Origin: Trachythela sp. YZ-2020
Taxonomy: Eukaryota; Cnidaria; Anthozoa; Malacalcyonacea; Clavulariidae
Length of the DNA stretch: 64,000 bases
Reading direction: 5' to 3'
Assembly (NCBI GenBank): GCA_016169945.1
Contig: JADLSH010000305.1
Location: 620,001-684,000 of the forward strand
Below the pieces are notes generated by a model, which was not told where the DNA came from, did not search any database, and saw only the letters and a list, made by a program, of their open reading frames with translations. Positions within the stretch are counted from its first letter, which is position 1. Each line of letters starts with the position of its first letter. Positions 25,707 through 63,746 of this stretch are shown here, piece by piece. The position numbers were made by a program, and so were the translations under genes.

Positions 25707-26283
25707 ATGGCTATAACAAACGAAGAAAGAAGATGGGTTGTCATTGGTGTATGTTTGACCAAAGTGCTTACTCCTGCATTGAGAAATGTTCTTGCAACCG
25801 AAATACCAAAGTGGCACAAAGTTTTATGTCAACCACCGACCGAAATTGGCAAACAAGTATTTGGTGGACACCAGAAAAAGTTACACCCATCAACTTTACA
25901 ACTCAACTATAAAAATATCAACAATAATGATGCGCACAAAAAAACCCATGCATTTGATTATACAGTTAAAGACCCATTGTCTTTGGCAAAATTGTTTGTT
26001 CAACCATTCATGTCCAAGTTCACTGGCTTTGACCAGACAATGGATATATCTGCAGTCTTATCAGTGATTTGTGAAGCTGCACCATTTATAGGAGCTGCTG
26101 CTCATGCAAAGACAGTTCGGAAAGACATCAGAAACGAGTGGGCACATTGCAACTTTGCAAAATGGACTGAAGCAAAATTTATTGCCGCTTTTCAAAGTAT
26201 GGAATCTTTACTTAAGAATGTGAATCTTTTACCTAAAGAGGAAGAGAAATTGTGTGATGAGCTGAATAGCTGGAAAGATAAAG
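25707..26283 (+). CDS. Copy B, exon 1: HEPN domain (DZIP3-like)
   Basis: ATG at 25707 is preceded by an in-frame stop. The exon runs 577 bp to a GATAAAG|GTATAG donor, ending in phase 1. It encodes an all-helical domain with IRNEWAHCNF at residues 141-150; R142-N-E-W-A-H147 fits the HEPN R-[N/D/H]-x3-H signature of metal-independent RNases. The ISAVLSVICEAAPF helix and the flanking spacing resemble the DZIP3-type HEPN domains found in invertebrate NLR-like proteins. Expected role: N-terminal effector that cleaves RNA after oligomerisation (inference). If intron 1 is retained, translation stops five codons later and gives a HEPN-only protein of 197 residues. The exon joins 27770-27882. Confidence 0.85.
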
Positions 26284-27769
26284 GTATAGAAATTGTATAA
26301 ATTTACCTGCCGCAAACCTCCAAATATAAGCCAGCCCTTGAATATATTCCCAGCATATCATTTAGATTTGGGCAAAAAAGATTGATGATTGAATTTGCTA
26401 TAATAGATACTAGCAACCTAAATTCACACCCCCAATATTTGAAATGTGTCCGCCACTGATCGCGAGCTAATTGAGGTTTGCACCGTCTACAGACGCATCT
26501 TTAATTTGTTCAGTCTGAAAAGAGGGGGTACATTTGCCAATAAATAGTACTCATTAAAAAATTGAGATATGGTGTGGCACACATCAAAGAGTATAATATA
26601 GTTTAATTGTTCTATCTTTTTTTATTTGATATATTTTTATGGCGATTACTTTAGGCCTGTTTCAAAGTTCAAACGTCGCCTTTTGCTTGTGTCGAATTCA
26701 ATTGTTTGCATTATGAGATGCAAAATTCGATATCTGAAACAATTAAATTCGACATTTTTAGTTGCGGTCGACCGTAACTTTAAATTCGACCGGTTCGGTC
26801 GCATAATGCGAGCTACATGTAAATGCGACGTGGTTTTAGACGTCGCATTTGGATTTGTGTCGAATTCAATTCGGCCTGGGCATGGCACAGGAGACGTCAT
26901 GTAATGTTATTGAAAAGTAACATGTTGCCAGTTTCTCAAGCGCTTTTGTGGCAAATACGGCGGCCGTACCTTGTATATATCTTGTAACAAAGAATTAAAT
27001 GACCGATCTTACTGCATAACTTGCGGAGTATATACGAATTAATACGTTTTACGAAATACGAAATATGCAAAAAGAGGATATATATTTTAAGTAACTGCAG
27101 TCCCCGATTTTGTAAGGGTGGTTTAATTTTCCTTCTCCTTTACCTTGCTCTAGATATTATACAATTTAATAATGCTATAATTTGTTTCAATTGTTTGACT
27201 TGTTTGAATTTGGCGCCAGATTGCGTCCTATTCTGTGTTTATTTTTAGGAACACGTTCGGTATGTTATTTAATTCGACACATGCAAAATTCGACGTTTGA
27301 AACGGACGTCGAACCTAATGTAATTCGCTCGAATCTAATGCGAATTGTATTCGACACATGCAAAATGCGACGTTTAATTTGAAACAGGTCCTTATATTAT
27401 TGTTTACAGAACCAATTAACAACCAACTCCCGATCAGGGCGTGATTTCATACATGTTCTACAGTTCTAGTGTACTCAATCATTTATGTGTTTATTCCCCA
27501 ATTATTTGTTGTGTTCGCCTCTTTGAAAACATCAAAGAAGAGATAAATTATCAATATTAAGGGATATACCGCAAAAGAGCAAATTGATAGAAAAAATTCG
27601 TGTATAGAATTTAATGAACATAATAATGTATAAAATAATTCAAAGACCCGTATGGCAATTCTAATAAAATAATTTAAACATGAAGATGAAAGTATACACG
27701 AAGTTAAGATGCCTTTTACATGTAATGATTTTCTTAACAATTAATTATAAGTATTCCCCTTGATTTCAG
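26284..27769 (+). other. Copy B intron 1
   Basis: GT at 26284 to AG at 27769 (TGATTTCAG). It contains the PIF-like MITE 26654-27391; the rest matches intron 1 of D, including the run up to AATTATAAGTATTCCCC before exon 2. No other feature is seen. Confidence 0.75.
26654..27391. mobile_element. MITE in intron 1 of B, TTA target duplication (PIF/Harbinger-like)
   Basis: Left end GGCCTGTTTCAAA and right end (complement of TTTGAAACAGGTCC) form TIRs. TTA flanks both sides (26651-26653 and 27392-27394). Inside are clustered CGAATT/AATTCGAC and GACGT motifs in both orientations, including a stem at 26700-26880. A decayed relative lies at about 57735-58410 in the same intron of D, so the insertion predates the B/D split. 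Confidence 0.75.
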
Positions 27770-27882
27770 GATTTCAATTGTGTTTTGGTCAACCTGTCGA
27801 CATTGAAATCTTGACTTTACTCAGAGGTGAAGTGGATGAAATTTGTGAAGCTGTGAAGACATGGAGTTTAGAGAAAGAAGAG
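27770..27882 (+). CDS. Copy B, exon 2 (linker)
   Basis: 113 bp between TGATTTCAG and GTTTGA. Joined to exon 1 it reads G-FQLCFGQPVDIEILTLL and continues through VDEICEAVKTWSLEKEE to phase 0, directly into the first codon of exon 3 at 28863. Its reading frame is open only in the phase set by exon 1, which supports the splice model. Confidence 0.85.
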
Positions 27883-28065
27883 GTTTGAAAATTGTTTTAT
27901 TTGGTTGTAGGTGTATGCTGAGAAATCTATTTAGTACCAAAATATATGTTTCAAGGTAATATAAAATTATCATTCGTACAGTACTGTATAATCCGACGAG
28001 TTAAATGCAACTGTTCATAGTTTTTGCCGTAAATAGTTGGACTATATAAAGCGGAACCAGACTAA

Positions 28066-28862: not shown

Positions 28863-31800
28863 ATGACTACACTACTTTCGAATATCAGCGAGATGCAATC
28901 AAACTTGAATAAGGAAATAGATGAACTGCGTATGAGAGTAGAAAAATGCGAGATTCAGGGAACTAACAATTCCTTGAGAATAGAAAAATGCGAGATTCAG
29001 GGAACTAACAGTTCATTAAGTATAGAAAGAAATTCCAAAGAAATACAGCGTATTGACAAGAAATATACCACTGAACTGTCAAGATATTATATTAAGGAAG
29101 AGGAGAAAATTCCCTATGTCTTCAATCCACCTTCACGAAATCGTTATTTCGCTGGTCGCACTGAAGAAATCCAAGAGCTTAAACGTAATTTGAAAGTCGA
29201 GGAAACGTTGAACGAAAAGAAAGTTCGTGTTGCAGCAGTTTGTGGTTTGGGTGGAATTGGTAAAACAAGCTTAGTTTCCGAGTATGCTCATCAGATGAAG
29301 GATTTCTACAAGGGAGGTGTTTATTGGTTCTCTGCTCAAGATGACACGTTTATTGACAAGACAGTGAACGACATCGCATTAGAGATTGGTGCATTGCTTG
29401 GTTCATTTGATTTAACTTTGTCAAATATTCTTAAAAAAATTAGCGCTACAAATGACCCATGTCTTATTGTCCTCGACTGCTTGGATCAACTGGATCTTTC
29501 ACCTAATATGATGAAATTTCTGTCCCTTCCTTCGCAAAAGAGTATCTTTGGACATTTTGTTGTGTTAACTAGGCGAAATCCAAACCGACTTGTTAATGAA
29601 GTTTCAGTTTTTGAGGAGTATTCTTGTCTTCAATTGAAATGTTTCCTGTCTCAAGAAGCAAAGCAATTTCTTCTTTTAAGAACTGGTGTAACTCGTGATG
29701 AAAATGTTGAGAGTATCGCAGAAAGTCTTTGTGAAGAGCTGGGGCGACTGCCACTTGCTTTGGAACAAGCCGGAGCTTATATTCAAATGCGCGGATGCAG
29801 TTTCTCTATGTATCTGGAGCAATATAAAGCTGAACGCTTGCGATTGCTTAGTCGGCAACGAGCACGTGCTGCAGGTAACGACTCCCCTGAACGTCTTGCC
29901 GTTCACACGACATGGCTTATCAATATAGAGTATATGAAGAAGTGCCCGGATGGTCAGGTTGCTGTTCGATTTATGAATGCTTGTTCATTCTTCGATGGAA
30001 ATGAGATCGAAGAAGAATTAATCAACGTTGGAACACCCGAAGTAGAAGACGTCGCGTTTCGTAAATGCGTGTCATCGCCATTGGGTTCTTGTGAGGTTCT
30101 AAAACTGTTGACTGACTTTTCACTTTTCACGTATGTCGAAGCGCACTCTGTCAGCACCCATCGTTTGGTTCAGGAACTAGTAAGAGAAAGTCTTAATCCA
30201 GAATCCAAAGCAGAGAGTTTCATTGATGCTGTGCGGATGCTTTCTTATGCATTCTCTAAATGTCCTTCACCCAGTAATCTTTTAAGTTCAGATTTACCTA
30301 AAAGTCCATCTCACTTCTACATGTGGTCTAAACTTTGTATGCATGGCCATCATCTTTGCAAAAATATGGAGGATCTGCTGTTAGCTCCCGACGCTGTTTA
30401 TTTGGACTCAGTGTGGTTTCCTGCAACAGCCAAAATTCTTTACCAATGTGCTGTTCATTTGAGCGCAAATCATAAACAGGAAGAAGCAAAACGCACATTG
30501 AACTTTGGCTATCGCATATTAGACTGGCTTCCTTTGGCAGAGTATGAAATGCTGGAAAAGAATGTTTCAAATAATTCCTTGTTTCCACTTTCTATTCCTT
30601 TACCAAAATCAATTCTGAACGTGATTAAACGATGTTGTATGCCTTATTTTGTTTCACTTCAACCTCTGACTGAAAAACCTGGACCTGAAGCTAGCCACCG
30701 TGATTTGATGGAGAAAATCGAGAAATTAAGATTTGATGGAAACAAAAGTTACAAAGAAGGTCGCTACAACGAAGCATTAGACGCGTATTCTTCTGCAATA
30801 AATTTGGCTCAGGATTGCAATAATGCTTTCAATCCCTTGTTGCTTACTAACCGTTCAACGGTTTACATAAAATTAAAGCGATACGAAGATGCTTTAAAAG
30901 ATGCGAATGATTACATAACGCGTCGTCCAGACTGCTGGAGGGGTTATGCCAGAAAAGCTCTGGCACTTGATGGCTTGAATGAGAAAGTCAGTGTTGAAAT
31001 AGCTGCTGCTTTAGCTTTTTATCACAATAGGGCTATTTTCTCTGATTTTTTACCATTCAAAGAGTCTTTCTTGGATTTGCAGAAACGCATTTTTATATGC
31101 GATAGTGTGGATGAACTGCGAGAAGCGATTTATTCGCATGGAGTACTAGAGGGTGTGTTAAAGATTTTGGTTCTGGGATCAGAAGAATATATCTTAAATG
31201 TTGGAACATTTGTCAAACCGTGGAACAACTGTATTCTAGTTGGTACGAGAAAAAATTGTTCTGTTTCTTTGAAGTTAGACGATAACATTCACTTGTTGAA
31301 GTGCATGCTTACAAATCTGTCATTCTATTTCAGTAAAGGTCATGTGGATTGTATACCTGGTTCGTTCGTCAAGATGCTTAGCTGTAACTTTACGTGTTGT
31401 GATGACGTCTTGCCTGCTGTAGGAACTCAGGGGGATTTTAACGCAGAACAATGCAATTTTACAAGCAAGAACAGTGTTGGACTGGTATGTTTTGGAGCAG
31501 GTAATGCGATTGTTGTTGACTGTTCCTTTTGTGGCAATGGGAAATTTGGGTTAATAGTGAGCGAAGGCGGGACGTTGATTGTGAAAAGCAGTCGCATATA
31601 TAACAATGGTCAAGGTGGGTTGTCAATAGGAGTCGAAGCATCGAGGTGTGTCGCAATTAATTGTGATATTCACCACAATGTTGGCCAAGGGATTGGTATC
31701 TTAAAGTCAAAGAATGTCACGCTGATTCGAAATAACGTTTTTGACAATGACCATAATGGAATATACATGGTAAATTCTGAGGCGGATATCAGAGAGAACA

Positions 31801-32645
31801 ACTTTTTTGATAACACTTTGTGGGGAATTTGGTCCCAGGACAATTCATGGTGCAATATATCGATGAATAGAGTTTTTCGCAACAAAACTGGGGGAGTTCG
31901 TGTGGGATATCGAGCTGCAGGAAAAGAGTTTCCCCCATCTGTCGTGGAACTGAATAATATTCATGATAATATTGGTCCTGGGTTTGTGGATGAATCGGAG
32001 CTCGCAAATGACGATTTGATGAAGTCGTATTCAAAGTCTCCCGATTCCCTTCAATCTGCCAAATGCCAGGATAATGAAATGTACAATAACATAGAAAGTG
32101 AAAACGATGCTAAAATAGATTTTTCCATTCCATATTGCTCAAATTGTCGTAAGAACTGTAAACTGAACAGGTGTGGAAAGTGCTTTACTGCCGCGTATTG
32201 CAACAAATCTTGCCAAGAAAACCACTGGTCAAAGCATAAGAAAATATGCAAAGTTTTACGTGAGAAGTCAAGCTATTTGATCGCTTCCATGAAAAGAGCT
32301 GAATACGATCGTTCTACGGAACTCGTTGAAGGCTCAAAAGAAATTGGTCCAAAGTTTAGCTCTCTGCCACCACGAGATGGCACGAGGTTTGTTGTAAAAG
32401 TACAGTCTGTAATAGAAGGAAGGAAGGAGTCGTACGCTTTCAGTTGGACTGTAACGATGTACGACCGTAGTCTTGAACTTCACCAAACATTTCATTCCAA
32501 TGTTATTGAGGAACTTGTAAAAGAGTTTGGTGTAATATGTGAACGAAAATTTTTCGAGAAAAAACTTTTCTTCCACTGCTTGTTTGAAGACAACGGACAG
32601 CTTCGACTATTCACGAATGATTTTGCTGAATTTCAAAATTGGTGA
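28863..32645 (+). CDS. Copy B, exon 3: NB-ARC / TPR / beta-helix / MYND NLR-like protein
   Basis: Follows a TTTCGTTTTACAG acceptor. With exons 1 and 2 it gives about 1490 residues. Exon 3 order: coiled coil with two tandem EKCEIQGTN-S units (residues 27-55); FAGR then P-loop GLGGIGKTSL; Walker B LIVLD; VVLTRR; LPLALEQAG; VSTHRLVQ (winged-helix end, MHD-like position); TPR region with LRFDGN, TNR and WRGYARK, matching the carboxylate clamp of HSP70/90-binding TPRs (first clamp Lys is Arg here); beta-helix of about 280 residues with repeated D-C-x-F/I and NNG-x-GL turns; MYND finger; C-terminal domain ending FQNW. Likely a cytosolic, nucleotide-switched innate-immune-type sensor (inference). 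It lacks a 13-residue acidic insert present in A, C and D, and 8 residues before the MYND linker. Its ATG is not the gene start. Confidence 0.9.
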   Translation: MTTLLSNISEMQSNLNKEIDELRMRVEKCEIQGTNNSLRIEKCEIQGTNSSLSIERNSKEIQRIDKKYTTELSRYYIKEEEKIPYVFNPPSRNRYFAGRTEEIQELKRNLKVEETLNEKKVRVAAVCGLGGIGKTSLVSEYAHQMKDFYKGGVYWFSAQDDTFIDKTVNDIALEIGALLGSFDLTLSNILKKISATNDPCLIVLDCLDQLDLSPNMMKFLSLPSQKSIFGHFVVLTRRNPNRLVNEVSVFEEYSCLQLKCFLSQEAKQFLLLRTGVTRDENVESIAESLCEELGRLPLALEQAGAYIQMRGCSFSMYLEQYKAERLRLLSRQRARAAGNDSPERLAVHTTWLINIEYMKKCPDGQVAVRFMNACSFFDGNEIEEELINVGTPEVEDVAFRKCVSSPLGSCEVLKLLTDFSLFTYVEAHSVSTHRLVQELVRESLNPESKAESFIDAVRMLSYAFSKCPSPSNLLSSDLPKSPSHFYMWSKLCMHGHHLCKNMEDLLLAPDAVYLDSVWFPATAKILYQCAVHLSANHKQEEAKRTLNFGYRILDWLPLAEYEMLEKNVSNNSLFPLSIPLPKSILNVIKRCCMPYFVSLQPLTEKPGPEASHRDLMEKIEKLRFDGNKSYKEGRYNEALDAYSSAINLAQDCNNAFNPLLLTNRSTVYIKLKRYEDALKDANDYITRRPDCWRGYARKALALDGLNEKVSVEIAAALAFYHNRAIFSDFLPFKESFLDLQKRIFICDSVDELREAIYSHGVLEGVLKILVLGSEEYILNVGTFVKPWNNCILVGTRKNCSVSLKLDDNIHLLKCMLTNLSFYFSKGHVDCIPGSFVKMLSCNFTCCDDVLPAVGTQGDFNAEQCNFTSKNSVGLVCFGAGNAIVVDCSFCGNGKFGLIVSEGGTLIVKSSRIYNNGQGGLSIGVEASRCVAINCDIHHNVGQGIGILKSKNVTLIRNNVFDNDHNGIYMVNSEADIRENNFFDNTLWGIWSQDNSWCNISMNRVFRNKTGGVRVGYRAAGKEFPPSVVELNNIHDNIGPGFVDESELANDDLMKSYSKSPDSLQSAKCQDNEMYNNIESENDAKIDFSIPYCSNCRKNCKLNRCGKCFTAAYCNKSCQENHWSKHKKICKVLREKSSYLIASMKRAEYDRSTELVEGSKEIGPKFSSLPPRDGTRFVVKVQSVIEGRKESYAFSWTVTMYDRSLELHQTFHSNVIEELVKEFGVICERKFFEKKLFFHCLFEDNGQLRLFTNDFAEFQNW

Positions 32646-35500: not shown

Positions 35501-35502
35501 GG

Positions 35503-39821: not shown

Positions 39822-42072
39822 CAAGGCTCAAAATAACGGCCAGTCACCGGTCTATGACAGGCGAATTTTTTAATATGACCGGTCAAATTTGTATGACGCC
39901 GGTCATAGTGACCAGTCAGATTTTGGCTCTGGGAACCAGATTGATTTTTGAGATGTTGTAGACCTGTTAAATATTATTATTATTATTATTATTATTTATT
40001 AAAATCTTGATTTGCAATATACACAGGTTGTAAATTGAAAAACTCAAGTTTACATCAATTGTTATAGTTAAAAATTTAAAAATTTTCTATCTCAATATGA
40101 GACAATACAGTATATAATTATATAAGTCGATTATACTAATTAGAGTAAAATGTTAAAATGTTAAAATTTGTAGTTAAATATTTATGTTCAGTGAGAAGCT
40201 GCGCTAAACTAATGCGTCCCACTTTCTTACGCAGTATGGTAAGAAACTGTCTTGGAACCGTTTAGTGCGACATTTAAATATCGGAAATTTACGAGTTTTT
40301 CTAAGATTGTATTGAGACTGGACTGGATCAGGCATCAAGGTGTTTAAGTTGTTTGGAGCACGTAAAACCTTTGAATAAAATGATTTACAAAGTGATTCTC
40401 GTCTATCAAAGAGGGTCGGCAACTTGAGTTCCACAAGTCCAGCAGCATACGACAAACGTGGACAGATGATCCTAATTGCACGACGTTGGATTTTCTCGAC
40501 TTCATCATCAAGCTTCGAAGTTAAAGATGAGTGCCATACAGGACACGCATACTCCAAGACCGGGCGAATGAAGGAGCAGTAGACAGAACGTAAATCCTTT
40601 GAAGGGACGCCACTGCGTCGCAAAATTCGCAAAGCATAGAGACGTTTGCTCGCTTTAGTACACACATGTTCAATATGAATGTCCCACTTTAGATTGTTAG
40701 ACAGGTGGACTCCCAAGAGTTTAATAGTGTGGACCAGTTCGAGCGGTTGGTCGTTAATTGCAAGGGGTTGTAACGAAGGTTGACTCTTCGCGAAAGTCAC
40801 AATAAACTCCTTAGTTTTCTTGGCGTTGAGCTTCATGTTATTGTTAGAAGTCCAGCGAGCAATATCATCAATTTCCCGTTGTAAATTCGAGGTACTTCCA
40901 GGTGTCAGAGATACAACTTCAGAGACCGTGCAGTCGTCAACAAATTTGTACAATGGAAATGCTGTCGTCAAATCGTTTACCATCACCAAAAAGAAAAGGG
41001 GCCCCAATTTTGTCCCTTGCGGTACGCCGGCGTTAGTAGTTTTCCAGGTAGACTTAAATTTGCCCAATTTCACGCGTTGCTGTCGATTGTGAAGGAAGCT
41101 TGCGCACCAGTTCAAAAGGACTGGCGGAACGTTGAAACGCTGAAGCTTACGAATGAGGACATTGTGATCAATCCGGTCAAACGCCTTGGAAAAATCGATC
41201 ATACACGACCGAACCACAGTTTTAGGGGTCTCAGTTGCCAGTAACCATTGATGAACAAGATGGACAAGTGCATGTGTTGTTGAGGACTTTTTGACGCCAC
41301 CAAACTGAAGAGGGTCAATATGCGGCATAATGATGGCAGACAACCACTGGAAAACAAAACCCTCAAGAACCTTACTTAGTACAGCAGTCAAAGAGATTGG
41401 TCTAAGGTCACTGTCAATTGATAGTGGTTTAGGAATCTTTGGTAAAGGCAACACATCTGCTTGTTTCCACAGAGAGGGAACATATCCTTCACTAATCGAC
41501 AGGTTGAAAATCGAGCATACTGGACGACATATAACTGGAGATAAGTTCTTGAGGAGCCAATTAGGAATTTCATCAGGACCATTGGATTTATGTTCTTTGA
41601 TCCTTGAAAGAGCGCATTGTACGGCTTCTGGGCTGATGATAAACTCGTCAGGAATGTGTGTTACTGGAATGGGAGTGTAGTCTAGCTGCGGGATATCGTC
41701 TGTAACTTTTCCAAAAGCGTCATTGATAGCTTCAGCGAGATCCATATCTTTCAAGAAGGTACCATCGATGTATATACTTGAAAGCGGAGCAGGTTTTGAT
41801 TGACCAGACAAAAGCTTGATGTTGCTCCACCATTTCTTTGGGTTTGAATTTTTCAGGTGACTGATGCAATTATGGTAAAAGCGACGACGCGCTGACTTGC
41901 AAAGACTCATTACTTTATTGCGATGTAGTCGAAGATTGAGTGACAACGCATCGGTACCGTTTTCCTTGTTTTTGGAAGGGCTCGAGGGAGTTGACTGGTC
42001 AGAAGCCGCGTTTGACCGGTCACAGATTTAACCCCATGACCGGCGTATGATGAAACGTTATTTTGAGCCCTG
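39822..42072. mobile_element. hAT-like non-autonomous element carrying a LINE, immediately upstream of copy C
   Basis: CAAGGCTCAAAATAACG at 39822 and CGTTATTTTGAGCCCTG ending at 42072 are inverted copies. The CA-GG start is hAT-like. Subterminal GACCGG/CCGGTC motifs recur at both ends (39840-39910 and 42000-42045). The 8-bp flanks (ATATCATT and TCATATGA) are not a clean duplication, so classification is tentative. The right end is 63 bp before the start codon of copy C, and homology between the C and B/D upstream sequences stops there. Confidence 0.65.
40204..41946 (-). CDS. LINE (non-LTR retrotransposon) reverse transcriptase, 5'-truncated
   Basis: Open for 580 codons on the minus strand; the frame stays open a further 18 or more codons upstream, to about 42000. 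RT motifs in order: NGPDEIPNW, DLRPISLT, FSKAFDRIDH (first catalytic Asp), GVPQGTKLGPLFF, KFVDD (catalytic Asp pair), then a thumb-like region with a LLGVHLSNNL motif and a C-terminal RRAIRIICP segment. The type fits CR1/jockey-like LINEs. No apurinic endonuclease domain is present, and the 3' side runs into an (AAT)n tail at 39970-40000, so it is a 5'-truncated copy nested in the hAT-like element. The frame is intact, hence a young insertion, but it cannot be autonomous. Confidence 0.9.
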   Translation of the reverse strand: MSLNLRLHRNKVMSLCKSARRRFYHNCISHLKNSNPKKWWSNIKLLSGQSKPAPLSSIYIDGTFLKDMDLAEAINDAFGKVTDDIPQLDYTPIPVTHIPDEFIISPEAVQCALSRIKEHKSNGPDEIPNWLLKNLSPVICRPVCSIFNLSISEGYVPSLWKQADVLPLPKIPKPLSIDSDLRPISLTAVLSKVLEGFVFQWLSAIIMPHIDPLQFGGVKKSSTTHALVHLVHQWLLATETPKTVVRSCMIDFSKAFDRIDHNVLIRKLQRFNVPPVLLNWCASFLHNRQQRVKLGKFKSTWKTTNAGVPQGTKLGPLFFLVMVNDLTTAFPLYKFVDDCTVSEVVSLTPGSTSNLQREIDDIARWTSNNNMKLNAKKTKEFIVTFAKSQPSLQPLAINDQPLELVHTIKLLGVHLSNNLKWDIHIEHVCTKASKRLYALRILRRSGVPSKDLRSVYCSFIRPVLEYACPVWHSSLTSKLDDEVEKIQRRAIRIICPRLSYAAGLVELKLPTLFDRRESLCKSFYSKVLRAPNNLNTLMPDPVQSQYNLRKTRKFPIFKCRTKRFQDSFLPYCVRKWDALV

Positions 42073-42134: not shown

Positions 42135-42732
42135 ATGGCTAGTGCTTGCGCCACAACCCCTATAACAAACGAAGAAAGAAGATGGGTTGTCATTGGTGTA
42201 TGTTTGACCAAAGTGCTTACTCCTGCATTGAGAAATGTTCTTGCAACCGAAATACCAAAGTGGCATCATGTTTTATGTCAACCACCGACTGAAATTGACA
42301 AACAAGTTTTTGGTGGACACCAGAAAAAGTTACACCCATCAACTTTAGACCTCAACTATAGAAATATCAACAATAATAATGTCCATAAATCACCACGTGC
42401 ATTTGATTATACAGTTAAAGATCCATTGTCTTTGGCAAAGTTGTTTGTTCAACCATTCATGTCCAAGTTCACTGGCTTTGACCAAACAATGGATATATCT
42501 GCAGTCTTATCAGTGATTTGTGAAGCTGCACCATTTATAGGAGCTGCTGCTCATGCAAAGACAGTTCGGTCAGACATCAGAAACGAGTGGGCACATTGCA
42601 ACTTTGCAAATTGGACTGAAGCAAAATTTATTGCCGCTTTTCAAAGTATGGAAACTTTACTTAAGAATGTGAATCTTTTACCTGAAGAGGAACAGAAATT
42701 GTGTGATGAGCTGAATAGCTGGAAAGATAAAG
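42135..42732 (+). CDS. Copy C, exon 1: HEPN domain
   Basis: 598 bp from ATG to a GATAAAG|GTACTG donor, phase 1. It starts with seven residues more than B and D (MASACATTP in place of MA). RNEWAH is intact at about residues 149-154. The coding part is nearly identical to B and D although the upstream sequence is unrelated beyond about 45 bp. With intron retention the frame would run on to FNG and stop at 42803. The exon joins 43434-43543. Confidence 0.85.
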
Positions 42733-43433: not shown

Positions 43434-43543
43434 GATTGCAGTGTTTTGGTCAACCTGTCCATATTGAAATCTTGACTGTACTCAGAGGTAAAGTTGATGA
43501 ACTTTGTGATGCTGTTCAGACATGGAGTTTAGAGAAAGAAGAG
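43434..43543 (+). CDS. Copy C, exon 2 (linker)
   Basis: 110 bp, one codon shorter than in A, B and D (GLQCFGQPVHIEIL), same phases. The single-codon loss keeps the frame, which supports coding function. Confidence 0.85.
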
Positions 43544-44470: not shown

Positions 44471-47400
44471 TTAACTACTCTAGTTTCGAATATCAGCGAT
44501 ATACAGTCAAACTTGAATAAAGAAATACACGATCTGCGTATGAGAATAGAAAAATGCGAGATTCAGGGAAGTGACAATTCCAAAGAAATACAGCTTCTTG
44601 AGAAGAAATTTACCACTGAACTGTCAAGATGTTATATTGAGGAAGGAGAGAAAATTCCCTATGTCTTCAGTGCACCTCCACGAAATCGTTATTTTGCTGG
44701 TCGAACTGAAGAAATCCAGGAGCTTAAACGTATTTTGAAAGTTGAGGAAACGTTGAACGAAAAGAAAGTTCGTGTTGCAGCAGTTTGTGGTTTGGGTGGA
44801 ATTGGTAAAACAAGCTTAGTTTCCGAGTATGCTCATCAGATGAAGGATTTCTACAAGGGAGGTGTTTATTGGTTCTCTGCTGAAGATGATACGTTTCTTG
44901 ACAAGACAGTGAACGACATTGCATTAAAGATTGGTGCATTGCTTGGTTCATTTGATTTAACTTTGTCAAATATCCTGAGAAAAATAAGCAGTTCACATGA
45001 TCCAAGTCTTATTGTCCTCGACTGCTTGGATCAACTGGATCTTTCGTCCAATACGATGGAATTTCTTTCCTTTCCTTCAGTGGAGAATATCTTTGGACAT
45101 TTTGTCGTGGTAACTAGGCGAAACCCAAACCGACTTGTCAATGAAGTTTCAGTTTTTGAGGAGCATTCTTGTCTTCAACTGAAATGTTTCCAGTCTCAAG
45201 AAGCAAAGCAATTTCTTTTTTCAAGAACTGGTGTGAATCGTGAAGAAAATGATGAGAGTGTCGCAGAAAGTCTTTGTGAAGAGCTGGGGAGACTGCCACT
45301 TGCTTTGGAACAAGCTGGAGCTTGTATTAACATTCTCCGTTGCAGTTTGTCTTCATACCTGGAGCAATATAAGGCTGAACGCTTGAAACTGCTGAGTCAA
45401 CAGCAAGCACGGCCTGTATCACCAGGTAAAGAGTCACCTGAACGTCTTGCCGTTCACACGACATGGCTTATCAATATGGAGTATATAAAGAAGAGCCCCA
45501 ATGGTCAGGCTGCTGTTCGATTTATGAATGCTTGTTCATTTTTCAATGGAAACGAGATCGAAGAAGAATTGATCAATGTTGGAACACCCGAAGTGGAAGA
45601 CGTCGCGTATCGTAAATGTGTGTCATCACCATTGGGTTGCCGTTTGGTTCTAAAATTGTTGACTGATTTTTCACTTTTCGCGTATGTCGAAGCGCACTCT
45701 GTCAGCACCCATCGTTTGGTTCAGGAAGTAGTCAGAGAAAGTCTTAATCCAGAATCGAAAGCAGAGAGTTTCATTGATGCTGTGCGGATGCTTTCTTATG
45801 CATTCTCTAAATGTCCTTCACCCAGTAATCTTGTAAGTTCAGATGAAAGCAATGATGAGGAACAAAACATATCTATCTCTGATTTACCTAAAAGTCCTTC
45901 TCACTTCTATATGTGGTCTAAATTTTGTATGCATGGTCATCATCTTTGTAGAAATTTGGAGGATCTGTTGGGAACTCTTGACTCTGCTTGTTTAGACTCA
46001 GTGTGGTTTCCTGCGACTGCCAAAATTATTTACGAATGTGCTGTTCATTTGAGTGCAAATCATAAACAGGAAGAAGCAAAACGCACATTGAACTTTGGCT
46101 ATCGCGTATTAGACTGGCTTCCTTTGACAGAGTATGAAATGGTGGAAAAGAATGTTTCAAATAATTCCTTGTTTCCACTTTCCATTCCTTTACCGAAGTT
46201 ATTTCAGATCGAGATTAAACGATGTTGTATGCCTCCTTTTGTTTCACTGCAACCTCTCACGGACAAACCTGGTGCTGAGGCGAGTTACTCTGATTTGGAA
46301 CAGAAAATTGAGAAATTGAAATTGGAGGGAAACAAGAGTTTCAGAGACGGTCGCTACAAAGAAGCATGTGACGCGTACTCTTCTGCCATAAATTTGGCTC
46401 AAGATTGCAATAATGCTTTCAATCCCTTGTTGCTTACTAACCGTTCAACGGTTTACATAAAATTAAAGCAATATGAAGATGCTTTAAAAGATGCGAATGA
46501 TTACATAACGCGTCGTCCAGATTGCTGGAGGGGTTATGCTAGAAAAGCTTTGGCACTTGATGGCTTGAACGAGAAAGTCGGTTCTGAAATAGCTGCTGCT
46601 TTAGCTTTTTATCACAATAGGGATATTTTCTCAGATTTTTTACCATTCAAAGAATCTTTCGTGGTCTTGCAGAAACGCATTGTCATATGCGATTCTGTGG
46701 ACGAACTGCGAGAAGCGATTCATTTGCAGAATGTACAAAAGGGTGCGTTAAAGATTTTGGTTCTGGGATCAGAAGAGTATATCTTAAATTTTGGGACTTA
46801 TATCGAACCTTGGGACAACTGTATTTTAGTTGGTACGAGAAAAAATTGTTCTGTTTCTTTGAAGTTAGACTATGCTATTTTGTTGAAGTGTATGCTTACA
46901 AATCTGTCATTTTATTTGGATAAAGGTCAAGTCCACTGTATACCTGGTTCGTTCGTCAAGATGCTCAACTGCAACTTTACGTCTTATGATGGCAATTTGC
47001 CTGCTGTAGGAACTCAGGGGAATTTGAATGCAGAACAATGCAATTTTACAAGCAAGAACAGTGTTGGACTTGTATGTGCTGGACCAAGCAATGCTGTTAT
47101 TGTTGACTGTTCCTTTTGTGGCAATGGGAAAGCTGGGTTACAAGTGCGGGAAGGCGGGACGTTGATTGTGAAAAGCAGCCGCATATATAACAATGGCCAG
47201 GATGGGTTGTCAATAGGAGTCGAAGCATCGAGGTGTGTCGCAATTAATTGTGATATTCACCACAATGGTGGGATAGGAATTGGTATCGTGGACTCAAAGA
47301 ATGTCACGCTGAAACGTAATAATGTTTTTGCAAATGACGATAGTGGATTATTCATCATAAATTCTGAGGCGAATATCGAAGAGAACAATATTTTTGATAA

Positions 47401-48238
47401 CGCTTCGTGGGGAATTTGGTCCCAGAGCAATTCATGGTGCAATATACGGATGAACAGAGTTTTTCGCAACAAACATGGGGGAGTTCGTGTAGGATATCGA
47501 GCTGGAGGAAACGAATTTTCCCCATCTGTCGTCGAACTGAATAATATTCAAGATAATATTGGTCCTGGGTTTGTGGAAAATGTAAATGGGGTTGAAATAG
47601 GAGGATCGAAATTAACAAATGACGATTTGAGAAAGTCGTATTTAAAGTCTCCCGATTCCCTTCAATCTGCCAAATGTCAAGATAACGTGGTGTGCAATAA
47701 CAGAGAAAGTGAAAACATTAGCAATGTAAAGTTTTCCTCTCCGTATTGTTCAAATTGTCGTAAGAACTGCAAACTGAACAGGTGTGGAAAGTGCTTTACT
47801 GCCGCGTATTGCAACAAATCTTGCCAAGAAAACCACTGGTCAAAGCATAAGAAAATATGCAAAGTTTTACGTGAGAAGTCAAGCTATTTGATTACTTCCA
47901 TGAAAACAGTTGGATACGATGTTACGGAACAAGTTGAAGGTCGAAACGAAATTAGTCCAGAGTTCAGTCCTTCCCCACCACGAAATGCTAGAAGGTTTGT
48001 TGTCAAAGTATATGCCGGAACAGAAGGCGATAAGTCGAACACACTCGTACTGTACGACCGTAGTCTTGAACTTCACAATACATTTAATTCCAAAATTGTT
48101 GAGGAACTTGTAAAAGAGTTTGGAGTACTATGTGAACGAAAATGTGTAGAGAAAAAGCTTTTTTTTCACTGCCTGTTCGAAGACAATGGACAGCTTCGAC
48201 TATTCACGAATGAATTTGCTGAATTTGAAAATTGGTGA
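44471..48238 (+). CDS. Copy C, exon 3: NB-ARC / TPR / beta-helix / MYND NLR-like protein (divergent member)
   Basis: The first codon is TTA where A, B and D have ATG, which shows that the exon is spliced rather than an independent gene start. With exons 1-2 the protein is about 1491 residues. All motifs are present: GLGGIGKTSL, LIVLD, LPLALEQAG, VSTHRLVQ, TPR clamp (LKLEGN, TNR, WRGYARK), beta-helix, MYND and C-terminal domain (ends FENW). It has one copy of the EKCEIQG coiled-coil unit. The beta-helix (for example VDSKNVTLKRNNVFANDDSG) and the segment after MYND are the most diverged of the family, while the P-loop and MYND segments are almost identical to the other copies. This pattern suggests selection on, or conversion of, the catalytic and finger regions and change in the candidate sensor surface. 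Confidence 0.9.
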   Translation, partial: LTTLVSNISDIQSNLNKEIHDLRMRIEKCEIQGSDNSKEIQLLEKKFTTELSRCYIEEGEKIPYVFSAPPRNRYFAGRTEEIQELKRILKVEETLNEKKVRVAAVCGLGGIGKTSLVSEYAHQMKDFYKGGVYWFSAEDDTFLDKTVNDIALKIGALLGSFDLTLSNILRKISSSHDPSLIVLDCLDQLDLSSNTMEFLSFPSVENIFGHFVVVTRRNPNRLVNEVSVFEEHSCLQLKCFQSQEAKQFLFSRTGVNREENDESVAESLCEELGRLPLALEQAGACINILRCSLSSYLEQYKAERLKLLSQQQARPVSPGKESPERLAVHTTWLINMEYIKKSPNGQAAVRFMNACSFFNGNEIEEELINVGTPEVEDVAYRKCVSSPLGCRLVLKLLTDFSLFAYVEAHSVSTHRLVQEVVRESLNPESKAESFIDAVRMLSYAFSKCPSPSNLVSSDESNDEEQNISISDLPKSPSHFYMWSKFCMHGHHLCRNLEDLLGTLDSACLDSVWFPATAKIIYECAVHLSANHKQEEAKRTLNFGYRVLDWLPLTEYEMVEKNVSNNSLFPLSIPLPKLFQIEIKRCCMPPFVSLQPLTDKPGAEASYSDLEQKIEKLKLEGNKSFRDGRYKEACDAYSSAINLAQDCNNAFNPLLLTNRSTVYIKLKQYEDALKDANDYITRRPDCWRGYARKALALDGLNEKVGSEIAAALAFYHNRDIFSDFLPFKESFVVLQKRIVICDSVDELREAIHLQNVQKGALKILVLGSEEYILNFGTYIEPWDNCILVGTRKNCSVSLKLDYAILLKCMLTNLSFYLDKGQVHCIPGSFVKMLNCNFTSYDGNLPAVGTQGNLNAEQCNFTSKNSVGLVCAGPSNAVIVDCSFCGNGKAGLQVREGGTLIVKSSRIYNNGQDGLSIGVEASRCVAINCDIHHNGGIGIGIVDSKNVTLKRNNVFANDDSGLFIINSEANIEENNIFDNASWGIWSQSNSWCNIRMNRVFRNKHGGVRVGYRAGGNEFSPSVVELNNIQDNIGPGFVENVNGVEIGGSKLTNDDLRKSYLKSPDSLQSAKCQDNVVCNNRESENISNVKFSSPYCSNCRKNCKLNRCGKCFTAAYCNKSCQENHWSKHKKICKVLREKSSYLITSMKTVGYDVTEQVEGRNEISPEFSPSPPRNARRFVVKVYAGTEGDKSNTLVLYDRSLELHNTFNSKIVEELVKEFGVLCERKCVEKKLFFHCLFEDNGQLRLFTNEFAEFENW

Positions 48239-56499: not shown

Positions 56500-57076
56500 A
56501 TGGCTATAACAAACGAAGAAAGAAGATGGGTTGTCATTGGTGTATGTTTGACCAAAGTGCTTACTCCTGCATTGAGAAATGTTCTTGCAACCGAAATACC
56601 AAAGTGGCACAAAGTTTTATGTCAACCACCGACCGAAATTGACAAACAAGTTTTTGGTGGACACCAGAAAGAGTTACACCCATCAACTTTACACCTCAAC
56701 TATAAAAATATCAACAATAATGATGCGCACAAAAAACCCCGTGCATTTGATTATACAGTTAAAGACCCATTGTCTTTGGCAAAGTTGTTTGTTCAACCAT
56801 TCATGTCCAAGTTCACTGGCTTTGATCAAACAATGGATATATCTGCAGTCTTATCAGTGATTTGTGAAGCTGCACCATTTATAGGAGCTGCTGCTCATGC
56901 AAAGACAGTTCGATCAAACATCAGAAACGAGTGGGCACATTGCAACTTTGCAAATTGGACTGAAGCAAAATTTATTGCCGCTTTTCAAAGTATGGAAACT
57001 TTACTCCAGAATGTGAATCTCCCACCTGAAGAGGAAGAGAAATTGTGTGATGAGCTGAATAGCTGGAAAGATAAAG
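56500..57076 (+). CDS. Copy D, exon 1: HEPN domain
   Basis: 577 bp, same start context and GATAAAG|GTAAAG donor as B, phase 1. RNEWAH is intact at residues 142-147. It differs from B by a handful of residues (for example SNIRNEW against KDIRNEW). The exon joins 59219-59331. Confidence 0.85.
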
Positions 57077-58410: not shown

Positions 58411-58565
58411 ACTCAATCATTTATGTGTTTATTCCCCAATTATTTGTTGTGTTCGCCTCTTTGAAAACATCAAAGAAGAGATAAATTATCAATATTAAGG
58501 GATATACCGCAAAAGAGCAAATTGATAGAAAAAATTCGTGTATAGAATTTAATGAACATAATAAT

Positions 58566-59073: not shown

Positions 59074-59218
59074 AATGTATAAAATAATTCAAAGTCCCGT
59101 ATGGCAATTCTAATAAAATAATTTAAACATGAAGATGAAAGTATACACGAACTTAAGTTGCCTTTTACATGTAATGATTTTCTTAACAATTAATTATAAG
59201 TATTCCCCTTGATTTCAG

Positions 59219-59331
59219 GATTTCAATTGTGTTTTGGTCAACCTGTCGACATTGAAATCTTGACTTTACTCAGAGGTGAAGTGGACGGAATTTGTGAAGC
59301 TGTGAAGACATGGAGTTTAGAGAAAGAAGAG
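59219..59331 (+). CDS. Copy D, exon 2 (linker)
   Basis: 113 bp, TTTCAG to GTTTGA, same phases as in B; encodes GFQLCFGQPVDIEIL and VDGICEAVKTW. One substitution (Glu to Gly) distinguishes it from B. Confidence 0.85.
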
Positions 59332-59918: not shown

Positions 59919-62900
59919 ATGACTACACTACTTTCGAATATCAGCGAGATGCAATCAAACTTGAATAAGGAAATAAATGAACTGCGTATGAGAGTAGAAA
60001 AATGCGAGATTCAGGGAACTAACAATTCCTTGAGAATAGAAAAATGCGAGATTCAGGGAAATAACAATTTTAAAGAAATACAGCTTCTTGAAAAGAAATA
60101 TACCACTGAACTGTCAAGATATTATATTAAGGAAGAGGAGGAAATTCCCTATGTCTTCACTGCACCTCCACGAAATCGTTATTTCGCTGGTCGAACTGAA
60201 GAAATCCAGGAGCTTAAACGTATTTTGAAAATTGAAGAAACGTTGAACGAAAAGAAAGTTCGTGTTGCAGCAGTTTGTGGTTTGGGTGGAATTGGTAAAA
60301 CAAGCTTAGTTTCCGAGTATGCTCATCAGATGAAGGATTTCTACAAGGGAGGTGTTTATTGGTTCTCTGCTGAAGATGATACGTTTCTTGACAAGACAGT
60401 GAACGACATCGCATTAGAGATTGGTGCATTGCTTGGTTCATTTGATTTAACTTTGTCAAATATCCTTAGAAAAATTAGCGCTACAAATGACCCATGTCTT
60501 ATTGTCCTCGACTGCTTGGATCAACTGGATCTTTCACCTAATATGACGAAATTTCTTTCCCTTCCTTCACAAAAGAGTATCTTTGGACATTTTATTGTGC
60601 TAACTAGGCGAAATCCAAACCGACTTGTTAATGAAGTTTCAGTTTTTGAGGAGGATTCTTGTCTTCAATTGAAATGTTTCCTGTCTCAAGAAGCAAAGCA
60701 ATTTCTTTATTCAAGGACTGGTGTGAATCGTGATGAAAATATTGAAAGTGTTGCAGAAAGTCTTTGTGAAGAGCTGGGGAGACTACCACTTGCTTTGGAG
60801 CAAGCTGGAGCTTGTATCAAAATGCTGCGTTGCAGTTTGTCTTCATACTTGGAGCAATATAAAGATGAACGCTTACGACTCCTGAGTCAACAACCGGCAC
60901 GCCCTGCATCACCAGGTAAGGAGTCATTTGAACGTCTTGCCGTTCACACGACATGGCTTATCAATATGGAGTATATGAAGAAGAGCCCGAATGGTCAGGC
61001 TGCTGTTCGATTTATGAATGCTTGTTCATTTTTCAATGGAAGCGAGATCGAAGAAGAATTGATCAACGTTGGAACACCCCAAGTAGAAGACGTCGCGTTT
61101 CGTAAATGTGTGTCATCACCATTGGGTTGCCGTCAGATTCTAAAATTGTTGACTGACTTTTCACTTTTCACGAATGTCGAAGCGCGCTCTGTCAGCACCC
61201 ATCGTTTGGTTCAGGAATTAATCAGAGAAAGTTTTCATCCGGAATCGAAAGCAGAGGCCTTCATTGATGCTGTGCGGATGCTTTGTTATGCACTTTCTAA
61301 ATGTTCTTCACCCAGTGATCTTGTAAGTTCAGATGAAAGGAATGATGAAGAACCAAACATATCTATCTCTGATTTACCTAAAAGTCCATCTCACTTCTAC
61401 ATGTGGTCTAAACTTTGTATGCATGGTCATCATCTTTGCAAAAATATGGAGGATCTGCTGTTAACTCCCGACGCTGTTTGTTTAGACTCAGTGTGGTTTC
61501 CTGCAACAGCCAAAATTCTTTACGAATGTGCTGTTCATTTGAGCGCAAATCATAAACAGGAAGAAGCAAAACGCACATTGAACTTTGGCTATCGCATATT
61601 AGACTGGCTTCCTTTGGCAGAGTATGAAACGTTGAAAAGGAATGTTAAAAATAATTCATTGTTTCCACTTTCTATTCCTTTACCGAAGTCATTTCAGATC
61701 GAGATCAAACGATGTTGTATGCCTCATTTTGTTTCACTTCAACCTCTGACTGAAAAACCTTGTGCTGAGGCTAGTCGCTGTGATGTGGAAGAAAAAATTG
61801 AGAAATTAAAATTGGATGGAAACAAGAGTTTCAAAGACGGTCGCTACAAAGAAGCATGTGACGCATATTCTTCTGCAATAAATTTGGCTCAGGATTGCAA
61901 TAATGCTTTCAATCCCTTGTTGCTTACTAACCGTGCAACGGTTTACATAAAATTAAAGCGATACGAAGATGCTTTAAAAGATGCGAATGATTACATAACG
62001 CGTCGTCCAGACTGCTGGCGGGGTTATGCCAGAAAAGCTCTGGCACTTGATGGCTTGAATGAGAAAGTCAGTGTTGAAATAGCTGCTGCTTTAGCTTTTT
62101 ATCACAATAGGGCTATTTTCTCTGATTTTTTACCATTCAAAGAGTCTTTCTTGGATTTGCAGAAACGCATTTTTATATGCGATAGTGTGGATGAACTGCG
62201 AGAAGCGATTTATTCGCAGGAAGTACAAGAGGGTGTGTTAAAGATTTTGGTTCTGGGATCAGAAGAATATATCTTAAATGTTGGAACATTTGTCAAACCG
62301 TGGAACAACTGTATTCTAGTTGGTACGAGAAAAGATTGTTCTGTTTCTTTGAAGTTGGACGATAACATTCACTTGTTGAAGTGCATGCTTACAAATCTGT
62401 CATTCTATTTCAGTAAAGGTCATGTGGATTGTATGCCTGGTTCGTTCGTCAAGATGCTTAGCTGTAACTTTACGTGTTGTGATGACGCCTTGCCTGCTGT
62501 AGGAACTCAGGGGGATTTTAACGCAGAACAATGCAATTTTACAAGCAAGAACAGTGTTGGACTGGTATGTGTTGGAGCAGGTAATGCGATTGTTGTTGAC
62601 TGTTCCTTTTGTGGCAATGGGAAATTTGGGTTAGCAGTGCACAAAGGCGGGACGTTGATTGTGAAAAGCAGTCGCATATATAACAATGGTGAAGATGGGT
62701 TGTCAATAGGAGTCGAAACATCGAGGTGTGTCGCAATTAATTGTGATATTCACCACAATGTTGGCCAAGGGATTGCTATGTTAAAGTCAAAGAATGTCAC
62801 GCTGATTCGAAATAACGTTTTTGACAATGACTATCATGGAATATACATGATAAATTCTGAGGCGGATATCAGAGAGAACAACGTTTTTGATAACGGTTTG

Positions 62901-63746
62901 TGGGGAATTTGGTCCGAGAGCAATTCATGGTGCAATATATCGATGAATAGAGTTTTTCGCAACAAAACTGGGGGAGTTCGTGTGGGATATCGAGCTGCAG
63001 GAAAAGAGTTTCCCCCATCTGTCGTGGAACTGAATAATATTCATGATAATATTGGTCCTGGGTTTGTGGATACGGTAAACGATTTTGAAGTAAGAGAATC
63101 GGAGTTCGCAAATGACGATTTGATAAAGTCGTATTTAAAGTCTCCCAATTCCCTTCAATCTGCCAAATGCCAGGATAACGAAATGTACAATAACATAGAA
63201 AGTGAAAACGATGCTAAATTAGATTTTTCCGTTCCATATTGCTCAAATTGTCGTAAGAACTGTAAACTGAACAGGTGTGGAAAGTGCTTTACTGCCGCGT
63301 ATTGCAACAAATCTTGCCAAGAAAACCACTGGTCAAAGCATAAGAAAATATGCAAAGTTTTACGTGAGAAGTCAAGCTATTTGATCGCTTCCATGAAAAG
63401 AGCTGAATACGATCTTTATACGGAACTCATTGAAGGCTCAAAAGAAATTGGTCCAAAGTTCAGCCCTCCTCCACCACGAGATGGCACGAGGTTTGTTGTA
63501 AAAGTACATTCTGTAATAGAAGTAAGCGAGAACTCGTTAACTTTATCAAGTGTCATGATGTACGACCGTAGTCTTGAACTTCACCAAACATTTCATTCCA
63601 ATGTTATTGAGGAACTTGTAAAAGAGTTTGGTGTAATATGTGAACGAAAATGTGTCGAGAAAAAACTTTTCTTCCACTGCCTGTTTGAAGACAACGGACA
63701 GCTTCGACTATTCACGAATGATTTTGCTGAATTTCAAAATTGGTGA
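59919..63746 (+). CDS. Copy D, exon 3: NB-ARC / TPR / beta-helix / MYND NLR-like protein (longest intact member)
   Basis: With exons 1-2 the protein is about 1505 residues. Exon 3 residues: coiled coil 5-65 with a repeated EKCEIQG unit; GLGGIGKTSL 121-130; Walker B Asp 198; LTRR 228-231; GRLPLALEQAG 287-297; STHRLVQ 426-432; acidic insert 471-483; TPR 626-715 with clamp residues K631, N635, N671, R701 and R705; beta-helix about 770-1050; MYND ligands C1108, C1111, C1120, C1123, C1129, C1133, H1141 and C1145; C-terminal domain 1189-1275. STAND ATPases switch from ADP-bound closed to ATP-bound oligomer; here oligomerisation would cluster the N-terminal HEPN RNases (inference). The beta-helix (as in FBXO11 and SHCBP1) sits where NLRs carry LRR or WD40 sensors. 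No signal peptide or membrane segment, so probably intracellular. Confidence 0.92.
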   Translation: MTTLLSNISEMQSNLNKEINELRMRVEKCEIQGTNNSLRIEKCEIQGNNNFKEIQLLEKKYTTELSRYYIKEEEEIPYVFTAPPRNRYFAGRTEEIQELKRILKIEETLNEKKVRVAAVCGLGGIGKTSLVSEYAHQMKDFYKGGVYWFSAEDDTFLDKTVNDIALEIGALLGSFDLTLSNILRKISATNDPCLIVLDCLDQLDLSPNMTKFLSLPSQKSIFGHFIVLTRRNPNRLVNEVSVFEEDSCLQLKCFLSQEAKQFLYSRTGVNRDENIESVAESLCEELGRLPLALEQAGACIKMLRCSLSSYLEQYKDERLRLLSQQPARPASPGKESFERLAVHTTWLINMEYMKKSPNGQAAVRFMNACSFFNGSEIEEELINVGTPQVEDVAFRKCVSSPLGCRQILKLLTDFSLFTNVEARSVSTHRLVQELIRESFHPESKAEAFIDAVRMLCYALSKCSSPSDLVSSDERNDEEPNISISDLPKSPSHFYMWSKLCMHGHHLCKNMEDLLLTPDAVCLDSVWFPATAKILYECAVHLSANHKQEEAKRTLNFGYRILDWLPLAEYETLKRNVKNNSLFPLSIPLPKSFQIEIKRCCMPHFVSLQPLTEKPCAEASRCDVEEKIEKLKLDGNKSFKDGRYKEACDAYSSAINLAQDCNNAFNPLLLTNRATVYIKLKRYEDALKDANDYITRRPDCWRGYARKALALDGLNEKVSVEIAAALAFYHNRAIFSDFLPFKESFLDLQKRIFICDSVDELREAIYSQEVQEGVLKILVLGSEEYILNVGTFVKPWNNCILVGTRKDCSVSLKLDDNIHLLKCMLTNLSFYFSKGHVDCMPGSFVKMLSCNFTCCDDALPAVGTQGDFNAEQCNFTSKNSVGLVCVGAGNAIVVDCSFCGNGKFGLAVHKGGTLIVKSSRIYNNGEDGLSIGVETSRCVAINCDIHHNVGQGIAMLKSKNVTLIRNNVFDNDYHGIYMINSEADIRENNVFDNGLWGIWSESNSWCNISMNRVFRNKTGGVRVGYRAAGKEFPPSVVELNNIHDNIGPGFVDTVNDFEVRESEFANDDLIKSYLKSPNSLQSAKCQDNEMYNNIESENDAKLDFSVPYCSNCRKNCKLNRCGKCFTAAYCNKSCQENHWSKHKKICKVLREKSSYLIASMKRAEYDLYTELIEGSKEIGPKFSPPPPRDGTRFVVKVHSVIEVSENSLTLSSVMMYDRSLELHQTFHSNVIEELVKEFGVICERKCVEKKLFFHCLFEDNGQLRLFTNDFAEFQNW

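Follow-up and report, generated by a model that had tools for sequence, protein, structure and literature searches.

A tandem octocoral gene cluster joining a predicted HEPN domain, an NB-ARC switch and a diversifying beta-helix: a possible receptor of a little-known kind

What kind of protein would carry a HEPN domain, an NB-ARC switch, a beta-helix and a MYND finger in one chain, and which of these parts could do the sensing? We asked this of a tandem cluster in a 64,000-nucleotide stretch of DNA (the window) from an octocoral-like genome. The original prediction of three intact three-exon genes (B, C and D), a frameshifted copy (A) and a fragment (A') was borne out by the assembled gene models. 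Those of B, C and D have GT-AG introns with phases 1 then 0 in all three and zero internal stops, and give proteins of 1490, 1491 and 1505 aa, respectively. Each encodes, in order, HEPN, a coil, NB-ARC, TPR, a right-handed beta-helix, a MYND finger and a conserved C-terminal domain. Exon 1 of copy A (L024) lies outside the window, upstream, at C329:617784-618353. The pieces within the window are as follows.

565..678, + strand: copy A exon 2
6002..7696, + strand: copy A exon 3, open piece 1 (coil, NB-ARC, DUF7779)
7702..9789, + strand: copy A exon 3, open piece 2, in a different frame (TPR, beta-helix, MYND, C-terminal domain)
15560..16318, + strand: C-terminal fragment A' (beta-helix end, MYND, C-terminal domain)
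25707..26283, + strand: gene B exon 1, HEPN; RNEWAH motif at about 26130-26147
27770..27882, + strand: gene B exon 2, short linker/coil; GT-AG, phase 1 then 0
28863..32645, + strand: gene B exon 3 (coil, NB-ARC, DUF7779, TPR, beta-helix, MYND, C-terminal domain)
42135..42732, + strand: gene C exon 1, HEPN
43434..43543, + strand: gene C exon 2
44471..48238, + strand: gene C exon 3 (NB-ARC through C-terminal domain)
56500..57076, + strand: gene D exon 1, HEPN; motif at about 56923-56940
59219..59331, + strand: gene D exon 2
59919..63746, + strand: gene D exon 3 (coil and NB-ARC through stop)

The claimed multi-domain architecture is real, as chance is excluded by seven matches, among the 120 of 227 listed, that span the whole query at 52-66% identity. 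Uncharacterised full-length relatives occur in Dendronephthya and Xenia, and some public models bear STIP1- or SGTA-like names. In gene D the domains encoded by exon 3 lie at these positions.

60225..60821, + strand: NB-ARC (GLGGIGKT, LIVLDC, LPLAL)
60996..61244, + strand: DUF7779 region after NB-ARC, with a THRLVQ motif
61776..62168, + strand: TPR of co-chaperone (HOP/RPAP3/SGTA) type
62169..63203, + strand: right-handed beta-helix
62559..62972, + strand: six aligned 22-24-residue coils with the variable ridge, registers -3, -2, -1, +2, +4 and +5
63240..63353, + strand: MYND zinc finger, eight ligands conserved
63381..63743, + strand: conserved C-terminal alpha/beta domain, no Pfam match listed

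The HMM searches proposed with the original prediction gave a mixed result. Beta_helix (E 1.8e-36 to 3.2e-22) and zf-MYND (E 1.2e-6) exceeded their Pfam cut-offs in B, C and D, and NB-ARC did so in C and D, with B slightly under (22.3 vs 23.5 bits), while the HEPN and TPR models stayed below theirs in all three genes. DUF7779 is at or above its cut-off in B, C and D, and the NB-ARC of each contains GLGGIGKT, LIVLDC and LPLAL, which we take to be the motif patterns of this domain. By their predicted domains the proteins are STAND/NLR-like receptors, with a central STAND NTPase, an N-terminal effector and a C-terminal repeat solenoid in the sensor position. The Pfam search (E up to 1) listed no LRR match in exon 3 of B, C and D, where the beta-helix and TPR are found instead, and without LRRs the family would fall outside the NLRs in the strict sense (NACHT-LRR or NB-ARC-LRR).

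The beta-helix had been proposed to replace the usual sensor repeat, and it does occupy that position; its diversification between paralogs is a new point beyond the earlier reading. In six repeated coils the residues of the same register vary between paralogs, and in the predicted fold they would stack into one ridge. Diversification is concentrated on this ridge in the nearest paralogs, with a dN/dS of about 1.8-2.0 on the ridge and about 0.3 in the other coil residues, computed with a fixed partition of codons. The ridge registers were picked after inspection of the entropy table and of how B and D differ, which makes the P values optimistic. By entropy alone, registers +8 and -11 outrank -3 and -1. 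Ridge omega does not exceed 1 in the pairs L010-L011 (0.25, with only 3 of 9 coil differences on the ridge), L018-L019 (0.43) and C-L013 (0.87), and widening the ridge to eight registers brings L009-L010 (0.92) and L014-L018 (0.90) below 1 as well. When the entire beta-helix is considered, 25 of 28 pairs have an omega below 1, and an excess over neutrality is reached only by B-D (P 0.013; A-D 0.059, A-B 0.31). The B-D dS is very low (0.005), which points to gene conversion and complicates the tests.

The reading that we consider probable is an NLR-like (STAND) receptor that senses through a beta-solenoid and acts through an RNase-type HEPN effector, for which we infer a cytosolic location and an immune role. 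The beta-helix would read a ligand along one variable edge of stacked residues from successive coils; the bound ligand would release the NB-ARC switch, which would then oligomerise and bring the N-terminal CXorf38-type HEPN domains together. The assembled HEPNs could then cut RNA of the invader or host, such that the infection is stopped or the cell killed. Binding of Hsp70/Hsp90 by the co-chaperone-type TPR may keep the receptor competent, and the MYND finger may dock a partner. A broader version, which we advance tentatively and hold at somewhat less than even, is that octocorals possess a diversified repertoire of intracellular receptors built on a fixed chassis (CXorf38-type HEPN RNase, NB-ARC, Hsp70/Hsp90 docking TPR and MYND). 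Here a beta-helix with one hypervariable ridge of stacked outward residues would take the place of leucine-rich repeats, as an independent functional counterpart of the LRR surface in plant NLRs and lamprey receptors.

The family is tandemly duplicated and octocoral-expanded. A diversifying ridge on tandem copies would be as compatible with allorecognition as with pathogen sensing, with the same HEPN/NB-ARC machine using the ridge to tell self from non-self in a colonial, neighbour-fusing animal; cnidarians are named, in an excerpt of PMC8195603, among the colonial animals with cell-death-linked allo-incompatibility. However, the genome holds at least about 34 loci, whole or broken, on 12 contigs, which in our judgement is closer to a pathogen-sensor repertoire than to a single allorecognition locus, and we regard this alternative as unlikely.

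The original prediction placed TPRs after the STAND ATPase and named TPR among the usual sensor ends of NLRs. A TPR is predicted here, but it looks like an Hsp70/Hsp90 docking module and is probably not the sensor, since the solved TPRs retrieved by sequence are mostly Hsp70/Hsp90 co-chaperones and the clamp residues are largely kept. At the five positions that we take to form the clamp, read against HOP, these are found in 31/45 (K/R8), 37/45 (N12), 36/45 (N43) and 36/45 (K/R73) rows, with the last clamp arginine (R77) in only 27/45. The same resemblance could be turned into a proteostasis or RNA-stress sensor. Its TPR would sense how far Hsp70/Hsp90 is occupied, endogenous clients would be bound by the beta-helix, and the HEPN would cleave RNA in the manner of unfolded-protein responses. 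The co-chaperone names of some public models would agree with this, as would a bacterial NLR-related protein that senses phage through DnaJ (PMC12169576). Such a sensor is nevertheless improbable in our view, as the TPR omega is low (0.37) and housekeeping proteostasis genes would not be expected to show such ridge diversification or so large a tandem expansion.

For the effector, the R-N-x3-H motif is intact as originally read, being RNEWAH in exon 1 of B, C and D; the R-x4-6-H motif of the HEPN superfamily is present in the form RN.WAH. The DZIP3-like assignment found no support: the profile evidence leads to CXorf38/Swt1 with none toward DZIP3, and PF18738 (DZIP3-HEPN) was neither among the families listed in the Pfam scan of B, C and D nor among all seven families of a HEPN Pfam scan (E up to 1). 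The window HEPN is under the Pfam cut-off for both HEPN_Swt1 and DUF4559, the latter of which we take to be CXorf38. Across the family, in Pfam scans with E up to 0.1 and among the 25 of 79 families listed, HEPN_Swt1 matches 59/70 members (best E 1.8e-4) and DUF4559 matches 24/70 (best E 2.1e-5). With regard to the four-helix fold of the HEPN superfamily, the AlphaFold model is all-helical and of moderate quality (pLDDT 71.9, pTM 0.61; 52.8-61.5 for the other four models), and Foldseek found no significant match to it (best E 2.4). Thus the refuting condition set with the original prediction came true in part, since both Pfam and the structure search fell short for the HEPN, while a profile-profile comparison (hhalign) of the family HEPN with an in-genome DUF4559 domain (94.5%, E 7.9e-8) supports homology to the CXorf38-type HEPN. 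The same genome also carries a clear CXorf38-type HEPN-NB-ARC-TPR gene. The zinc ribbon of the strict CXorf38 HEPN, which PMC3710099 names, was looked for as conserved cysteines, with none in A1 and cysteine pairs in A4. Taken together, the domain is predicted to be a divergent CXorf38/Swt1-type HEPN.

We infer that this effector cleaves RNA. The HEPN could also be a non-cleaving RNA-binding or dimerisation domain, with a signalling platform built through the MYND finger as output. The eight Cys/His zinc ligands of that finger are each kept in 43-44/45 rows, and some HEPN clades, Swt1 included, are listed as inactive in an excerpt of PMC3710099. CXorf38 is listed there as active, however, and R and H are kept in 17/17, 117/120 and 14/14 sequences of three sets. 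Such conservation would be difficult to account for if the domain neither catalysed a reaction nor bound nucleotides, and we hold this alternative to be very unlikely.

The start of exon 3 is ATG in B and D, so that HEPN-less products are possible, versus TTA in gene C, where the next Met is exon residue 24. That exons 1 and 3 belong to separate genes, as this ATG and public models that begin at it (P0072) might suggest, is hardly credible given that three genes share their exon order and phases, that gene C lacks the ATG, that six uninterrupted frames, each of roughly 1.5 kaa, occur on contigs of roughly 5 kb, and that a HEPN exon lies upstream in 13/18 fetched family loci (none was found in the fetched stretch of the other 5/18). 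At the other end of the protein, 4/17 HEPN proteins are without the MYND pattern, two of them being short beta-helix proteins (P0108 and P0138).

Receptor repertoires that diversify have mostly been described on LRR, Ig and lectin scaffolds, and this cluster hints at a little-known kind of receptor. If the preferred reading of a beta-helix sensor is true, an intracellular right-handed beta-helix would be an additional scaffold for them. The CXorf38-type HEPN, poorly understood and also found in a human protein, would be placed as an effector on NB-ARC receptors, and the TPR suggests that an NLR-like receptor may carry its own chaperone dock. The ridge is defined residue by residue, and B and D are near-identical paralogs.

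Compared with alginate epimerases (AlgE4/AlgE6), polysaccharide lyases and phage tailspikes, the beta-helix has 9-17% identity (50 rows listed); the DPHE motif was not found in gene D. The TPR shares its fold and most dicarboxylate-clamp positions with HOP/STIP1, RPAP3 and SGTA, but here it sits inside a receptor and often lacks the last arginine. Coral NB-ARC-TPR proteins (excerpt of PMC10236652) likewise join NB-ARC to tetratricopeptide repeats, whereas in this family a short, co-chaperone-like TPR precedes a beta-helix bearing the variable surface. Anthozoans and pearl oyster have DZIP3-HEPN NACHT proteins that also combine a HEPN effector with a STAND switch in large expanded families, but their HEPN is of a different clade and their sensor ends are others (LRR, WD40, TPR), with no beta-helix or MYND reported in the excerpts of PMC8260672, PMC10236652 and PMC9646362. 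Cnidarians and cephalochordates carry NACHT fusions of a CXorf38-family HEPN, with a proposed role in defence (Anantharaman et al. 2013, excerpt of PMC3710099), such that the pairing of effector and switch is not new. Both have a CXorf38/Swt1-type HEPN with R-N-x3-H on a STAND switch. Unlike in that excerpt, the switch here is NB-ARC/DUF7779, zinc-ribbon cysteines were not seen, and the switch is followed by TPR, beta-helix, MYND and one more C-terminal domain.

Translation of the window under the standard code recovered the long open frames where the original prediction had placed them. Joining the exons at GT-AG boundaries gave a complete protein for each of three genes, all with three exons and with identical intron phases; the products have 1490 aa (B), 1491 aa (C) and 1505 aa (D). 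At the position of the ATG that opens exon 3 in B and D, gene C has TTA, and the next methionine of its exon 3 comes 24 residues further on. A' is a C-terminal fragment only. The frameshifted copy A has its exon 1 just upstream of the window, its exon 3 spread over two frames and its second exon as follows:

565-678: exon 2 of copy A

The copy adjoining D on the plus strand (L012, 7748-8667) changes frame within the beta-helix, so that at least two copies in the array are broken. Six public proteins (P0077, P0080, P0081, P0132, P0133 and P0135) support a link between exon 1 and the remainder of the gene: each is an unbroken frame of some 1.5 kaa, and with contigs only 4.8-5.3 kb long they look like cDNA. 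A reverse transcriptase frame on the minus strand (window 40204-42027; Pfam RVT_1, E 1.6e-26), probably a retroelement within the array, lies about 100 bases upstream of exon 1 of gene C and on the opposite strand to it. The minus strand also carries an acidic 228-aa frame (window 1520-2206) for which Pfam gave nothing at E up to 0.01.

In profile searches for a HEPN domain, exon 1 of the window's genes falls below the Pfam cut-off; weak matches are common to the family. These are to HEPN_Swt1 in 12/12 members of one set (A1) and 59/70 of another (A2), and to DUF4559, which we take to be the Pfam model of human CXorf38, in 5/12 and 24/70 respectively. The AlphaFold model was moderate only (71.9, with the other four models at 52.8-61.5) and Foldseek gave no significant match, which counts against an independent confirmation of the fold. 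The link to CXorf38 comes from another contig of the same genome, where a locus (L004, 421-3702, contig C237) encodes a clear DUF4559 domain (94.4 bits) fused to NB-ARC and TPR in a single open frame; the HEPN part of this locus can be aligned with two others, L005 and L007. The alignment of a profile of these three to exon 1 spans 175 columns (probability 94.5, E 7.9e-8) and brings the catalytic motifs into register. By these sequence comparisons the exon 1 HEPN is a divergent member of the CXorf38-type HEPNs, lacking their zinc-ribbon cysteines. The RN.WAH motif is kept in 17/17 HEPN proteins of one protein search and in 14/14 genomic copies of exon 1. Of 456 short HEPN proteins found, 120 were listed, and 117 of these keep it too, the three without it being P0237, P0243 and P0244. 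Anantharaman et al. (2013, PMC3710099) place the CXorf38 HEPNs in the Swt1 group and list them as active.

The same HEPN is found on other STAND proteins. In the public protein P0136 (1205 aa) it precedes an extended repeat resembling a coil, then NB-ARC and WD40 repeats, and in P0139, whose source name ends at 'Myt' and is read here as Mytilus, a HEPN with 33% identity is joined to nSTAND3 and ankyrin. By these two architectures the HEPN behaves as an exchangeable effector, and that of P0136 means that HEPN and sensor ends have been swapped between STAND families. The family member P0081 (1697 aa) has an additional N-terminal region ahead of the HEPN (residues 1-205), without a Pfam match above the cut-off, which may resemble a TRADD-N-like domain.

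Among the 120 of 227 matches listed, the named relatives are octocoral proteins of Dendronephthya gigantea and Paramuricea clavata; the best from Dendronephthya gigantea is 66% identical along its full extent. None of the listed matches is identical to the window. A further protein search added a relative from Xenia. The window spans positions 620001-684000 of contig C329 in an assembly of 578 Mb. Searching this assembly with exon 3 gave 44 matches, merged by hand to at least about 34 intact or disrupted loci spread over 12 contigs, a lower bound because 36 of 210 candidates were scored. Eight of these are on C329, five of them on the same strand as the window's genes (plus) and three on the minus strand. 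We also took 25 of 50 NB-ARC places, each with roughly 10 kb of sequence (15 picked mostly for long frames, then 10), and 18 of the 25 belong to the family. Beta-helix and MYND are present in all 18 and the HEPN exon lies inside the sequence taken in 13; the remaining seven of the 25 had no match to D's domains at E 1e-4. In five family loci on two contigs (C371 and C389) the match to exon 3 starts mainly at residue 301 or 302, and thus an intron may split the NB-ARC in this subfamily; in one of the five, residues 98-302 match separately.

When B, C and D were compared pairwise at the codon level, the HEPN, NB-ARC, TPR and MYND proved to be constrained. Between B and D the beta-helix has 26 nonsynonymous changes and 1 synonymous, compared to 58 and 45 in the NB-ARC (Fisher 3e-5), and its very low dS suggests that gene conversion took place recently and that amino-acid changes came after it. 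In the nine pairs of B, C and D with L009, L010 and L011, dS is 0.19-0.28 in the NB-ARC and 0.51-0.59 in the beta-helix, whereas the B-D pattern is the opposite (0.19 and 0.005); these opposite patterns suggest mosaic gene conversion.

The beta-helix has six clear solenoid coils of 22-24 residues each (model 262-399). Across 45 relatives the entropy follows the coil register to a degree that 0 of 5000 shuffles matched, but such ordering alone is expected in any solenoid. In A, B and D, 19/36 positions vary on a ridge of registers -3, -2, -1, +2, +4 and +5, compared to 0/25 on the five registers that come next in variability (P 3e-6), the ridge having been fixed post hoc, with the entropy table and the differences between B and D already seen. 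The ridge holds 13/16 of the coil differences in B-D, 17/19 in A-D and 14/15 in A-B, and just 3/9 in L010-L011. A fixed-partition codon model of nine paralogs, with gene conversion outside the model, gave a ridge omega of 1.84 (MG) and about 2.0 (GY grid), favored over omega 1 by 2dlnL of 7.0 and 10.3. The corresponding values were 0.34 and 0.3 for the rest of the coils, 0.37 and 0.3 for the TPR and 0.59 and 0.7 for the C-terminal domain. Ridge omega exceeds 1 in 7/10 pairs, the others being L010-L011 (0.25), L018-L019 (0.43) and C-L013 (0.87); when the ridge is widened to eight registers, L009-L010 (0.92) and L014-L018 (0.90) also fall below 1. The odds ratio of ridge to rest, pooled over four disjoint pairs, is 3.0 (P 1.7e-4), and with eight registers 3.0 (1.4e-4).

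Drawing on knowledge of these families and the location of the variation, we consider the most likely scheme to be one in which a ligand would bind the ridge of the beta-helix, the NB-ARC switch would then open and the clustered HEPNs would cut RNA, with the TPR serving as a chaperone dock and the MYND as a partner dock.

The pairing of a HEPN effector with a STAND switch is already known from fusions of CXorf38 HEPNs to NACHT, and to death domains, in cephalochordates and cnidarians, as reported by Anantharaman et al. (2013, PMC3710099). Our literature searches, with limited result lists, found no paper on a beta-helix/MYND receptor. Cnidarian HEPN-NACHT families with a DZIP3-type HEPN have been described, with 83 proteins in D. 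gigantea (PMC8260672), as have coral NB-ARC proteins with TPR (PMC10236652). In its construction the family resembles STAND receptors of the NLR type, but it is not an NLR in the strict LRR sense.
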